The position numbers and the translations under genes are program-made. The notes below the pieces were generated by a model, which saw only the letters and a program-made list of their open reading frames with translations, ran no database searches and was not told where the DNA came from. DNA of 20,466 bases from a virus: positions 1 through 20,466 of the IMG/VR virus record IMGVR_UViG_3300010354_000874; one strand, written 5' to 3'. The first letter of the stretch is position 1; each line of letters opens with the position of its first letter. Below are positions 6,435-16,127 of the stretch, piece after piece.

Positions 6435-8951
6435 TTATCCCGGAGGCATGCCAGCACCTTGTACAGGACTAGCAGATACCATGGAATCCATACTTCCAGC
6501 TATGCGCGACAACAAACCCACCATGACCTCATTTAACTCTTTGATGGATATCCAAGTTCTTTTAACGTCGGTTTGCCAGTTTTCTGCTCCATATTCAGCT
6601 GGAGTTACAGCACTGGCTCGGGGTTGACTGGCAAGTGCCAACAATCTCTGTACGCTGGACAAATCGCCAGCAGCAGGCAAGCTCACAGCACTGATAAGCT
6701 CGCGATATCCTGTGCTGAAATCTCTCAAAGCTTGGCCAGTTTCTGTGTATTGCACGTTAAGGCCCTGACGGTTTGCCAACATGTTGTCGATTTGCTCAAG
6801 AACACTCATTTGACCAGCAGCTTGTTCGGGATTTCGTTGCCCTCCAGCACCTGCTCGTGCAGCAATATCTGCAGGACTTGATCCTAATAGACCAAAGCTC
6901 AAACCGCTTAAGGCGCTGCTACCAGCATTCAGGAGTTTTCCACCAAAACCTGCACTGGGATCGGCAGTAAAACCTTGAAACGCATCAAATAAACTCATGC
7001 CTATTGCCAAGGGGCCAAACGCACGACCCAGCAATCTTCCTGCCCCGCCCAACATGCTGCCCAATCTGCCTCCTCGTCCAGCTGCTCCTGCTGGTCCACC
7101 ACCGCCCCCCATTCCCGGGATACCCGGTGCTGCACTAGGTAAACCGGCTGGTCCTACAATAGACACAAACAAAGGATCGCTTGCAGTCATACCTTTATCC
7201 ATGCCGGGAATAAGTGGTGCCTCACTGGGAATACCTTTGCGACCAAAACGCGACCGCACACCACCAATAAGCGAGCGTGTTCCACGATATGCGAGATACC
7301 CTGCTGTGGCCATACCGGCCATGCCTAGTAAACCTCCCGCCCCACTAGTCGCATCAGGACCACTTTTGGTAGGTAGTAAGCTAGCTATTAAACCTGTTTT
7401 GTCTTTGTCTGCTGTAGGAAGAAAAGAAGTAATAAACTGGTTAACACGCAGCATGACATCTGCTAGTCCACCAACCGCTGTTGATACTATTTTCAAAACT
7501 GGAGTAAGTCCCTCAGCTAGGCTTGTATAAACTCGTGTTAATTCGTTATTGAACTGGTTCATGCTGCTTTCATATTCAGTCATGATGCCTTTGCGACGTT
7601 GAAGCTCCTCTTTTTCCATCCTATCTTGATCTTCGTAACGCTTCTTTATAATGGCATAACTAACACCAGTTTCCCTTTCTTCTTTAAGAATGCGTTCGTG
7701 ACGATCTTTTTCTTGTTGTGCTACTCTTTCGGCATTTTGTATTAAATCTCCTAAAACACCAGCAACTTCTGGCATGGCAGCTAAAAGCTGCTGCCTAAGA
7801 GCCTTGGGCGCTCCCACTAGTGTCTTGGCAAAATCATTCAAGGCTTCATCAGTCATTTTGCCATCTTTTTGGAACGATTCAGCCAGATTCTGGAAACTGT
7901 TACCAAGTCCAGGAACTGTTGCAACAAGTTTAAGCATGCTGTCATCTAGCAGGCCAAAAGTCCCACCACCGGCAATATACTTTTGGATGTTGTCATACAG
8001 TAACTTGCCGCCAGCTTGTCCAAACTTTGCAAGTTGAGCGCTGGCATTAACAAAGTTTTCTCTGGCCTTGTCAGTCATTGTACTCAGTAACAAAAACGAT
8101 CCACCAGTCTTGGTAAGACTGCCAACAAAATCCAAGAGAGATTTTCTTGACATACCTGTTGCTTCACTGGCTTTGGTAATCTCGCCAATGAACCTTCTGC
8201 TGCTTCCAACTAACTGATCATTAGTCAAACTTGCAGTAATACCCGACTGTTGATAGATTTCTGCTGTTTGCAGGAATGTTTCGGCATTTTCCTGCAAACT
8301 CATGATAAATTCGCCACCACTAGATGTGGCTTTTTGGAAACTTTCTATTAATCGGGGAACACCACGACCACTAAGAGCTGCTATAGTTGTGCTGTTTTTG
8401 GTCATCAAACTGCCAAAATCTTGCAAAGTCATACCAGCTAGACTGCTGCTGGTGATTAAACCCTGTAGGCCTCCTTCCAGTCTCACCCCACTGCCATATA
8501 TATCTGTGAAAATTTTGTCCACTTCAAACATTTTGTCCACAGCCATTTTGGCAAGGCTCAAACCTAGGGAAAATTTATTCAAATATGTAATTGTTTTTTG
8601 CCATTCAGGAGCAGTTGAACTCAACTGCTGACTTAGTCCTTTACTAGCTTGACTTAGTTGTCCAAAAACTGATCCTCCGGGTCCTAGTCCTGTAGTCAAA
8701 ACTTGACTTATAGCCCCTTTGAGTTGCCAGGGCATTTTCTCAAATTTTTCAGAGAGCGTTTTTTGACCTTTATTGCCTTCCTCTGTGGCTTTGGTCTGAA
8801 CTTTAGTGGCTTGAGTTTGTTCCTCAGTTGCCTCACGCCATCTTTTCGGCAGGGCATTAAAGATTTTGTTTAAGGTAGAATCCTTGGCCCAGGAGTCATC
8901 CCCCATTTTTACATATAGTGGCTTATCTTGCCCACCTAAAGTTCCTGACAT
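6435..8951 (-). CDS. Probable tail tape-measure / baseplate hub protein (gp29-like)
   Basis: An 838-residue protein with tape-measure features. Residues about 40-75 are a charged, Gln/Glu/Lys-rich helix; the next 400 residues are mainly helical. Residues about 420-480 are strongly charged coiled coil (EKDRHERILKEERE...). There is then a hydrophobic Gly/Ala region (GLLGMAGMATAGYLAYRG) followed by Gly/Pro-rich linkers (PGMGGGGGPAGAAGRGG). A hydrophobic stretch inside a long helical tail protein suits a tape measure, which sets tail length and can enter the host membrane during DNA delivery. Its neighbour across the divergent promoters is a gp26-like hub gene, and gp29 plays the tape-measure role in T4. 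No diagnostic motif is visible and it is longer than T4 gp29. The ATG at 8951 has only a weak AGG about 14 bases away. Confidence 0.5.
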   Translation of the reverse strand: MSGTLGGQDKPLYVKMGDDSWAKDSTLNKIFNALPKRWREATEEQTQATKVQTKATEEGNKGQKTLSEKFEKMPWQLKGAISQVLTTGLGPGGSVFGQLSQASKGLSQQLSSTAPEWQKTITYLNKFSLGLSLAKMAVDKMFEVDKIFTDIYGSGVRLEGGLQGLITSSSLAGMTLQDFGSLMTKNSTTIAALSGRGVPRLIESFQKATSSGGEFIMSLQENAETFLQTAEIYQQSGITASLTNDQLVGSSRRFIGEITKASEATGMSRKSLLDFVGSLTKTGGSFLLLSTMTDKARENFVNASAQLAKFGQAGGKLLYDNIQKYIAGGGTFGLLDDSMLKLVATVPGLGNSFQNLAESFQKDGKMTDEALNDFAKTLVGAPKALRQQLLAAMPEVAGVLGDLIQNAERVAQQEKDRHERILKEERETGVSYAIIKKRYEDQDRMEKEELQRRKGIMTEYESSMNQFNNELTRVYTSLAEGLTPVLKIVSTAVGGLADVMLRVNQFITSFLPTADKDKTGLIASLLPTKSGPDATSGAGGLLGMAGMATAGYLAYRGTRSLIGGVRSRFGRKGIPSEAPLIPGMDKGMTASDPLFVSIVGPAGLPSAAPGIPGMGGGGGPAGAAGRGGRLGSMLGGAGRLLGRAFGPLAIGMSLFDAFQGFTADPSAGFGGKLLNAGSSALSGLSFGLLGSSPADIAARAGAGGQRNPEQAAGQMSVLEQIDNMLANRQGLNVQYTETGQALRDFSTGYRELISAVSLPAAGDLSSVQRLLALASQPRASAVTPAEYGAENWQTDVKRTWISIKELNEVMVGLLSRIAGSMDSMVSASPVQGAGMPPG

Positions 8952-8977
8952 TTTATAGATCTACCTAGTTTCAGCAT

Positions 8978-9014: not shown

Positions 9015-9863
9015 ATGAATCCCCTGCAACCTTACTTTAGAAAACCACAAGTGTATATAACATTGCCCAGTCAAGGGCGGTGGTATAAACCACAGGACAT
9101 TACTTTAACAGCAGACAATGAACTTGCCATATATGGCATGACTGCCCGAGACGATGTTTTGCTTAATACCCCGGACGCCATGCTGAACGGTGAAGCACTG
9201 AAAAAAGTCATTGCCAACTGTGTTCCTGACGTACATAACATCAATGCCCTGGTGACCCCCGACTTGGAAGCTATTTTTCTGGGCATGAAAGTAGCAAGTG
9301 GCGATGGCACCATGGAAATCAACAGAGTTTGCCCACAATGTGGCAATGAATGTAGCTGGGACTTGCAATGCCAGCCTATTTTAGACGGTCAAACCATGAT
9401 TGACCATCAAGACGGTTGTGTAATATTAGATCAAACACTGGAAGTGCATGTGAAACCCTATGATTTCCGGCAACGCGGCATTTTTATACAGCGCGAATAT
9501 CATGAAGAACGTGCCATACGTCAGTGGGAAACTTTAAATCCCGAAAGCAACGATTTACAAAAAGCACAAGTCATGGCACAAGCAGTGGATAATATTGCAC
9601 AACTAACTGTGGCTTTGGTTAGTGCCAGCATATCGCATATTAAAATCCTGGATTCGGGTGAGACAGTTGATAATCCTGAATATATCACAGAATGGTTGCA
9701 GTCAGCGTCACGAGCACAAGCAGAAGCAATCATTTCCGCAGTGGATCAACTTAACAAATGCGGTCCCAATAAAAATCTCGACGTGGAATGTAACAAATGC
9801 AATCACATGTGGCAGGAAACTGTGAGTTATGATCCCATAAGTTTTTTCGTCAAACGCTCCTAA
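9015..9863 (+). CDS. 26: Baseplate hub protein with zinc ribbon (gp26-like)
   Basis: A 282-residue protein of the T4-like baseplate gp26 type. Residues near the N-terminus (FRKPQVYITLPSQGRWY) and LAIYGMTARDDVLLNTPDAMLNGEAL follow the usual family pattern, as does the Ala-Leu-Val-x-Pro-Asp-Leu-Glu region. Four cysteines in two pairs, CPQC (around residue 99) and CNKC (around residue 261), with a third CxW region between, suggest a structural zinc site. It probably helps assemble the central hub of the baseplate. The first in-frame ATG at 8976 overlaps the late promoter element, so the ATG at 9015 is preferred, though its ribosome site is weak. The last codons include T TTT TTC, a predicted -1 frameshift site; a shift gives a product of about 355 residues by joining the downstream frame. 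Confidence 0.7.
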   Translation: MNPLQPYFRKPQVYITLPSQGRWYKPQDITLTADNELAIYGMTARDDVLLNTPDAMLNGEALKKVIANCVPDVHNINALVTPDLEAIFLGMKVASGDGTMEINRVCPQCGNECSWDLQCQPILDGQTMIDHQDGCVILDQTLEVHVKPYDFRQRGIFIQREYHEERAIRQWETLNPESNDLQKAQVMAQAVDNIAQLTVALVSASISHIKILDSGETVDNPEYITEWLQSASRAQAEAIISAVDQLNKCGPNKNLDVECNKCNHMWQETVSYDPISFFVKRS

Positions 9864-9900
9864 GCTGTGATCCAGAGCTGATCCAGGAAATGCTTGGGGG
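9842..9900 (+). promoter_or_regulatory. Predicted programmed -1 frameshift site
   Basis: The slippery heptamer T TTT TTC occupies 9842-9848 in the zero frame (codons AGT TTT TTC). Eight bases later, CTCCTAAGC (9857-9865) can pair with GCTTGGGGG (9892-9900) to form a 9-bp stem, two pairs being G-U, around a 26-base loop. The zero frame stops at 9861-9863. In the -1 frame there is a TGA shortly upstream of the heptamer and then none until 10079-10081, so only the short overlap containing the heptamer allows a shift. Spacing and geometry match known -1 sites. Frameshifting itself is not shown. Confidence 0.7.
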
Positions 9901-10081
9901 CATGAACAAAAACGTAACTACCATTGAACGAGACATTGCCAGTTTGGTTTATTACATGAACGGCGGATTGAATTACAACGATGCTTGGTTGTTGACTGCC
10001 AATCAACGGCGAACTATGATTAAAGTAATTGAAGATCATTATAAAGCCATGAATCCCAATAAGAACTCAGGAAGCATGTAA
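9890..10081 (+). CDS. Short -1-frame ORF, probable C-terminal extension of the gp26-like protein
   Basis: Sixty-three codons from ATG 9890, in the -1 frame relative to the gp26-like gene. The frame is open upstream through the slippery site, and the sequence just before the ATG (RQTLLSCDPELIQE) reads as natural protein that continues into MLGGMNKNVTTIERDIASL, so the ATG may be internal. The segment is helical with a conserved-looking YYMNGGLNYNDAWLLTANQRR. AGGA lies only a few bases from the ATG, too close for a good ribosome site, and a second ATG at 9902 also lacks good spacing. In tail assembly chaperone pairs of other phages a short C-terminal extension is made this way; here the parent is a baseplate protein. 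It could instead be a separate coupled gene. Two terminator hairpins follow. Confidence 0.6.
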   Translation: MLGGMNKNVTTIERDIASLVYYMNGGLNYNDAWLLTANQRRTMIKVIEDHYKAMNPNKNSGSM

Positions 10082-14861: not shown

Positions 14862-16127
14862 TTATTCAGCAGTTTTTTGGGATATTTCGTTTTCTGTTTG
14901 TCTTGTGTAGCTGGGAGTAGATCCATGCATGATTAACAAGTCATCACGAATGTTTTGGTTTCTTTTTTCTGTGTTTAGTATGCGAGTAAAAGAGTTCTGG
15001 ACAGCACTGGTATAATATGCAAAGGGGTTTTCACTGCGACTTTCATCAAACTGAAGTCCAATCTGGCTTAGCTGCAACAGGGCTTGTCCCTGCATTTCTT
15101 CATTATATGTATTGCCAGTAAGGAAGATTTTGCCGTTGCGGCGAGCCACCCATGATCCCAGTAATGTTTTAGGACACCACACTAACCCAGAATAGAGCAG
15201 ATTGGGTTTTTTCCAATCCCCCTGGAAATCTATGTCTTGAGCTTTTACAGACATAATGTCTTGTTCCAAACAATCAACGTCCAGTGCTGGAGCTTGTACA
15301 AATATTTCATCATGAGGTTTTAAATTTTCCACAGCTATCAATCCTCTATCAGTAACCAGCTTGTGACCTGGTGTGATTACACTGTCGATTAAAGCATGAT
15401 TTAGTTTGAATACCGGTCCTGTGTAATCTTTTTTGACAACATCAATAACCGGCGTCCAAACACAACAGTTATCTGAATAACTCAGAACCAAATCTTGATT
15501 AGTTAGTTCATTGTGTTTTAGCCAACCACGTTGTGTTAGAGCCTGAGTTTGATCATCAACACAATACCCTCTCCAGTTGCCTTTTTTGCTATATTTTTCC
15601 ACTAGTTTCATAAACATCATGGCAAGCTTGGGAGTAATGAATCCGTGGTTGTTACAAAACTCACCATTTTGTAAACCACCTCGCCAGTGACTTTTTCCCA
15701 CGCACAACCAAGTGTCATTTATGTAAACATAATGCTGGAAAGCAGGAAAGTTGATTTTAACATGGCGTTCCGCTGTGGTTTTGCCTGTGGTGTGTTTTAC
15801 AGGATGTGGCGGAATGTGATCATATGTCATCAACCTAACCACAACTTGTTCTATATCCAGACTTTCAGGATCAATTTTACAAATGGGATTTTTTTCACCA
15901 CGACTTTGTGCTTCTTTTCGCAACCGCTGAGTTTGTATCTCGGCTTTTTTGATTTTTGCTTGTTGAAGAGTTTCCGGGCTTATGAGATTTAGATCGTGTG
16001 TGATAATATCAAAGTTACTGTAAATATTTTCCAAGTAGCTGCAATAGGTATTTTTGCTCGCGTGTATTTGTTCTAACAGTTCACGATTGGTTAAGTATTT
16101 GATTTTAATTGCAGCGGTTATAGTCAA
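14862..16127 (-). CDS. 55: Late-transcription sigma factor gp55, interrupted by an intein
   Basis: A 421-residue precursor. Residues 1-188 and 340-421 form the 270-residue extein and 189-339 a mini-intein. The joined sequence KLVEKYSKKGNWRGY/TYNEEM, then the NPFAYYTSAVQNSF region, matches the sigma-like core of T4 gp55 (for example FSGYT...EM and NPHAYIT). gp55 redirects RNA polymerase to late promoters with the sliding clamp. Residues 1 to about 155 are an added N-terminal region absent from T4 gp55 (185 residues), with a segment YLTNRELLEQIHASKNTYC. No good ATG exists; TTG at 16127 follows GGAG by seven bases, with an in-frame stop just upstream, so TTG is preferred. A sigma70 promoter lies upstream. 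The gene is first in an operon with gp47 and gp46. Confidence 0.9.
   Translation of the reverse strand: MTITAAIKIKYLTNRELLEQIHASKNTYCSYLENIYSNFDIITHDLNLISPETLQQAKIKKAEIQTQRLRKEAQSRGEKNPICKIDPESLDIEQVVVRLMTYDHIPPHPVKHTTGKTTAERHVKINFPAFQHYVYINDTWLCVGKSHWRGGLQNGEFCNNHGFITPKLAMMFMKLVEKYSKKGNWRGYCVDDQTQALTQRGWLKHNELTNQDLVLSYSDNCCVWTPVIDVVKKDYTGPVFKLNHALIDSVITPGHKLVTDRGLIAVENLKPHDEIFVQAPALDVDCLEQDIMSVKAQDIDFQGDWKKPNLLYSGLVWCPKTLLGSWVARRNGKIFLTGNTYNEEMQGQALLQLSQIGLQFDESRSENPFAYYTSAVQNSFTRILNTEKRNQNIRDDLLIMHGSTPSYTRQTENEISQKTAE
15111..15563 (-). other. Mini-intein inside gp55
   Basis: The 151-residue segment runs from Cys189 to Asn339 of the precursor. Its block A is CVDDQTQALTQRGWL, followed by LTNQDLVLSY. 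Block B contains TPGH with His255. The end reads VARRNGKIFLTGN, the usual block F/G pattern, with Thr340 as +1 nucleophile. The penultimate position is Gly rather than His, which also occurs in other inteins. Between blocks B and F there are only about 50 residues, so no homing endonuclease is present. It should remove itself after translation by protein splicing; the insertion is at a conserved GY|T point of the sigma core, where it would block function until spliced. Confidence 0.88.

Follow-up and report, generated by a model that had tools for sequence, protein, structure and literature searches.

Does a ribosome that reaches the end of a T4-like gp26 gene always stop there? The question is raised by a 20,466-bp IMG/VR virus record (hereafter the window, the whole stretch of DNA that was analysed) from a bacterial virus with a distant relationship to phage T4, in which T4-like genes for the portal gp20 (PF07230, E 4e-101), the late sigma factor gp55 and a gp26-family protein (PF12322) can be recognised. 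The original prediction held that a programmed -1 frameshift joins the gp26-like protein to a downstream frame, and the comparative sequence data collected here support it. With a probability of about 0.9, we propose that a programmed -1 frameshift at the heptamer T_TTT_TTC yields a short and a long tail assembly chaperone form from this gp26-family gene.

The slippery site and its predicted products

The gp26-family gene runs from 9015 to 9863 on the plus strand, as do all features of this section, and its zero frame encodes 282 aa, the putative short chaperone (PF12322, E 1.9e-15, 57.6 bits against a cut-off of 24.5; phrog_150, E 7.5e-16; no match in an NCBIfam search). The MNPL start at 9015 is kept in relatives; an alternative upstream ATG at 8976 would lead to a 295-aa product. 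Because the codons counted from the MNPL start read AGT TTT TTC, the heptamer T_TTT_TTC (9842-9848) lies in frame 0, four codons 5' of the TAA stop codon (9861-9863). In the -1 frame an open stretch begins at 9833 and runs to a stop ending at 10081, and the extension that would be read after a slip covers 9848-10081 (77 codons plus the stop). Counted from 9015, the predicted shifted product has 355 residues, with FFRQTLLSCDPE as the predicted peptide across the junction. An ATG inside the -1 frame (9890-9892) opens an ORF of 63 codons and is a possible but poor independent start, with no Shine-Dalgarno word at a usable distance. The in-frame heptamer, the -1 frame opening just upstream of it, the predicted fusion length of about 355 residues and the short ORF without a good ribosome site had all been claimed originally, and each is confirmed here. 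The claimed 9-bp stem, eight bases downstream, also stands but with revised dimensions: its arms (9856-9865, holding the zero-frame stop, and 9892-9901) form 10 bp including two G-U pairs, and it begins 7 nt after the heptamer.

Under the proposed mechanism most ribosomes would end at 9861-9863 and release the short form of 282 aa, while a minority would slip back one base at T_TTT_TTC. Re-pairing of the tRNAs after a -1 slip is established for sites of the type X_XXY_YYZ. Here both Phe tRNAs would re-pair with UUU UUU, and the slip should cost little pairing since both heptamer codons are read by tRNA-Phe and both face UUU afterwards. The stem would help the slip and may slow the ribosome; shifted ribosomes would then read the 77 codons of the -1 frame and produce the long form of 355 aa. 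By analogy with lambda G/GT and T4 gp26/gp51, the short and long forms would jointly coat the tape measure protein, aiding assembly of the tail tube, at a short-to-long ratio set by the slip rate. The slipping itself, its rate and the chaperone role are what we infer. In lambda (gpG/gpGT) and P2 (gpE/E+E') a short and a long chaperone are made from one gene via -1 frameshifting near the stop, at heptamers other than the one in the window. The likeness to the window concerns the arrangement of short and long forms through a -1 shift near the stop codon.

Conservation of the heptamer and of the -1 frame

Alignment across related phages, suggested along with the original prediction, bears out the heptamer: among related loci whose gene end is intact, 160 of 163 (a count that includes duplicates) have T_TTT_TT[C/T] at the end of gp26, as have 115 of 116 clusters after clustering at roughly 90% nucleotide identity. 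Past the zero-frame stop the -1 extension in the related loci measures 54-75 codons, against a median of 7 for the +1 frame. The three exceptions, all Ackermannviridae, are Serratia phage 3M and two viral contigs whose gp26 is 97-100% identical to that of 3M. These 3M-type loci (L028, L164, L165) do have a gp51-like frame in -1 after gp26, but their site reads G_GTT_TTC, which may represent a weaker or different slip.

The same picture emerges from the first 24 loci, consisting of the window, 11 viral contigs and 12 named jumbo phages (SCTP-2, Phosso, Atu_ph07, RAS14, PA5oct, Vibrio 2.275, 121Q, RaK2, XacN1, XaC1, GAP32 and Munch). All 24 carry an in-frame TTTTTTC or TTTTTTT at the gp26 end, and just 5' of this heptamer a -1 frame opens that spans 72-86 codons; the distance from the first heptamer base to the zero-frame stop downstream varies between 10 and 40 nt. 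A matching heptamer and -1 arrangement was also found in cyanophage S-RIM8, Methylophilales phage Melnitz, Delftia phage PhiW-14, Vibrio phage phi-ST2 and Aeromonas phage ZPAH1. For comparison, control ORFs of 150 aa or more were taken from the same loci (like the Phe-Phe pairs discussed below, from the 116 cluster representatives only): an in-frame TTTTTTY within the last 46 nt occurs in 1 of 144, and none of the 144 combines such a heptamer with a -1 extension of 50 codons.

The -1 product is aligned and conserved from the heptamer onward (FFRxxLL...). Between the zero-frame stop and any ATG, GTG or TTG, substitutions fall on -1 codon positions 1, 2 and 3 in a proportion of 14/9/33 (p = 1e-4 for 35 disjoint pairs, the fairer version of a 146-pair coding test that reuses sequences); after the first start the counts are 377/209/811. 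Judged by this substitution pattern, the -1 frame is evolving as protein, even upstream of any start codon.

One gene or two: gp26, gp51 and competing explanations

T4 gp26 and gp51 both belong to the PF12322 family (E 8.8e-64 and 3.9e-52) and align over the length of gp26 at 25% identity. The tails of the gp51-type proteins (T4, RB43, Miro) are homologous to the -1 products of the marine-type T4-like phages (hhalign probability 96.9, E 1.7e-10, in a single comparison). By these sequence criteria the two T4 proteins are paralogues, and gp51 consists of a gp26-like domain followed by an extra C-terminal tail. Between the jumbo group, to which the window belongs, and the marine group the gp26 proteins are homologous (profile probability 99.2), and the -1 tails show a weak profile likeness (probability 36.7, E 3.6e-4).

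Gene copy number follows the slippery site among the 21 phage records compared. One PF12322 gene is present in 17 of the 18 records without a fused gp51; the remaining one, SCTP-2, has none by HMM, yet its gp26 was located by tblastn. T4, Miro and RB43 have two PF12322 genes each, and TTTTTTY is absent from all six of these genes. Given this contrast, what one lineage seems to achieve by slipping within one gene, as in the window, is encoded in the T4/RB43/Miro lineage by two separate genes. In Miro (L032) and RB43 (L033) the long gp51-type gene and the short gp26 gene share a strand, with the former directly 5' of the latter; the T4 pair is divergent.

Cyanophage- and KVP40-type phages (S-RIM8, Melnitz, phi-ST2) resemble the window in having T_TTT_TT[C/T] at the gp26 end and a short gp51 in the -1 frame. 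They differ from it by a GAGG-like word upstream of the heptamer, a shorter tail and a next large gene that lies downstream on the same strand (as seen in S-RIM8 and phi-ST2). The jumbo phages of the RaK2/121Q/GAP32-like and PA5oct-like groups share with the window the heptamer, the kind of -1 tail and a divergent large structural neighbour, at only 26-32% identity to the window gp26. The joined product is unannotated there, and across the 12 named jumbo records no annotation joins the frames.

Several points have been published before. Passages of the PRFect paper, citing Vladimirov et al. 2022, state that some T4-like phages carry a short gene plus a long, fused one in place of frameshifting (PMC10885494), and the phage Adele paper, in a passage citing the same work, mentions poly-T slippery sequences in T4-like TAC-N genes (PMC12846349). 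From these citing passages and the PF12322 matches, we take the genes of Vladimirov, Gautam & Davidson 2022 (Virology 566:9-15), a work known to us through the papers that cite it, to be 26 and 51. Frameshifting in the gp26 family is thus already in print. According to the part of Sullivan et al. 2010 consulted, gp51 of cyanophages and of marine vibriophage is without the first ~200 residues and keeps the C-terminal part (PMC3037559); in that text the word 'frameshift' is absent. In the literature searched we found no paper on gp26 frameshifting in RaK2-like phages or cyanophages, and we claim no priority. The family, the mechanism and the poly-T sites are thus already published, and the window adds a case from a lineage whose public records leave the arrangement unannotated.

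The conserved zero-frame Phe-Phe pair (F277 and F278, invariant across 56 sequences) could in itself account for TTTTTT, with the downstream frame being noise. Such a chance overlap can practically be dismissed: of the 209 Phe-Phe pairs elsewhere in the loci no more than 13 are spelled T_TTT_TTY, T4 gp26 retains the pair but spells it TTC TTT, without a site, and homologues of the -1 product are found in named phages at gp26 identities down to 16%. Alternatively, the downstream frame might be a separate small gene of 63 codons, read without any fusion from the ATG at 9890, by reinitiation or translational coupling once ribosomes have terminated on gp26. The downstream ORF is indeed annotated as a gene of its own in 10 of the 12 named jumbo records (in those of RaK2 and PA5oct the second frame has no annotation at all), and 21 of the 23 sequences in the window's clade have the ATG, so that a minor internal start at this place may exist. 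As the sole source of the product, however, it is quite improbable. A start within 30 codons that is preceded by GGAG, GAGG or AGGA at a usable spacing occurs in just 2 of 42 jumbo-type and 4 of 71 marine-type loci, together 6 of 113 (for the start of gp26 itself a Shine-Dalgarno word is found in 24 of 41 and 16 of 70, respectively), so the short ORF mostly has no strong start of its own, in line with the original prediction. Moreover, the protein-like substitution begins 5' of any start, the heptamer is kept far more than Phe-Phe requires, and a tail homologous to the marine -1 products is physically fused in T4 and RB43.

It might also be argued that the frameshift is real but that the long form is a structural part of the baseplate and no chaperone: phrog_150 carries the label baseplate hub, and T4 genetics cited in a review of the T4 tail place gp26 in the hub (PMC3004832). 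We regard this as unlikely, given that passages of the same review count gp26 and gp51 among the chaperones of hub assembly, with gp51 (essential, and of unknown function) being absent from the final particle (PMC3004832), and that the two papers that refer to Vladimirov et al. 2022 regard the T4-like genes as coding for tail assembly chaperones (PMC10885494, PMC12846349). Since gp51 corresponds to gp26 plus a tail like the marine -1 products, and since phages with the site have one gene whereas T4, RB43 and Miro have two without it, gp26 is best read as a tail assembly chaperone, with the short form produced unshifted and the long form shifted. The earlier remark that frameshifted extensions are classic for tail assembly chaperones is therefore upheld, but not the view that gp26 would be an exception: gp26 and gp51 are paralogous and, according to the two citing papers, the literature already describes the T4-like genes as tail assembly chaperones, which would make the window gene a classic case.

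Consequently, the 'baseplate hub' gene of jumbo phages is likely a tail assembly chaperone gene with two products. The contrast with the two genes of T4 lends itself to testing why phages should require a fixed short-to-long ratio, which would be set by the slippery site in one lineage and by the expression of duplicated genes in the other. As a tentative scenario, to which we assign slightly less than an even chance, frameshifting in a single gene would be ancestral in T4-related myophages and the two-gene state of T4 and RB43 derived, by a duplication that erased the site and left T4 gp26 with its Phe-Phe. Two sub-lineages would then have tuned the heptamer differently, the window's group through a stem downstream and the marine group through a Shine-Dalgarno-like word upstream.

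Possible stimulatory elements and neighbouring genes

The stretch downstream of the heptamer folds with a z-score of -2.45 against shuffles. Within the window's subclade 98.3% of the cells of the stem are paired, and 3 pairs are changed on both sides among 6 distinct sequences, with all three doubly changed pairs occurring in one sequence (L010). As a general element the stem was rejected: in the wider clade of 23 sequences only 56% of the cells are paired. Because it holds and covaries in the closest relatives and not in the wider clade, the stem is claimed as a local element, i.e. it is probably a stimulator specific to the window's subclade; on alignment in relatives the originally noted stem is thus upheld for the subclade and not for the wider clade.

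A Shine-Dalgarno-like word upstream of the heptamer was not found in the window (9822-9841) and occurs in 1 of 42 loci of its group. In the marine group a GAGG-like word precedes the heptamer in 72 of 72 loci, at about 10-15 nt in loci such as L026, and GAG is preferred over GAA at that place (42 of 70, against 395 of 1281 elsewhere; p = 1e-6). The word may be a Shine-Dalgarno-type stimulator that takes the place of the stem; as conserved Glu-Gly codons favour and partly force a GAGG-like word, we do not rely on this match.

The large neighbour of gp26 (6435-8951, minus strand, 838 aa) is a candidate tape measure gene. It weakly matches phrog_14121 (E 0.0025), labelled 'virion structural protein'; the XaC1 gene in its place has a weak match to a tape measure PHROG (0.002), and in the RaK2 record the gene at the equivalent place is annotated with similarity to a tape measure protein. 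The large neighbour lies on the strand opposite to gp26 in the window and in the jumbo phages of loci L018, L019 and L021-L023.

A structure model of the window gp26 (pLDDT 88.2) matches models of viral gp26 relatives; the extension modelled alone is poor (pLDDT 55.6). A Foldseek search of the PDB with the gp26 model gave nothing significant, with the HK97 chaperone 2OB9 ranking fourth (E 2.1). In VIA-align the model and 2OB9 reach Z 6.2 and an rmsd of 3.4 over 88 of 107 residues, not above background, so that the modelled likeness is at most suggestive.

Elsewhere in the window the gp55-like late sigma factor gene (14862-16127, minus strand) is seemingly interrupted, with PHROG matches at residues 7-215 and 340-417. 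None of the intein models searched matched the insert. Its ends, which we take to be intein-like, are CVDDQTQALTQRGW ... TPGHKLVT ... NGKIFLTGN before T, and the insert looks like a mini-intein.
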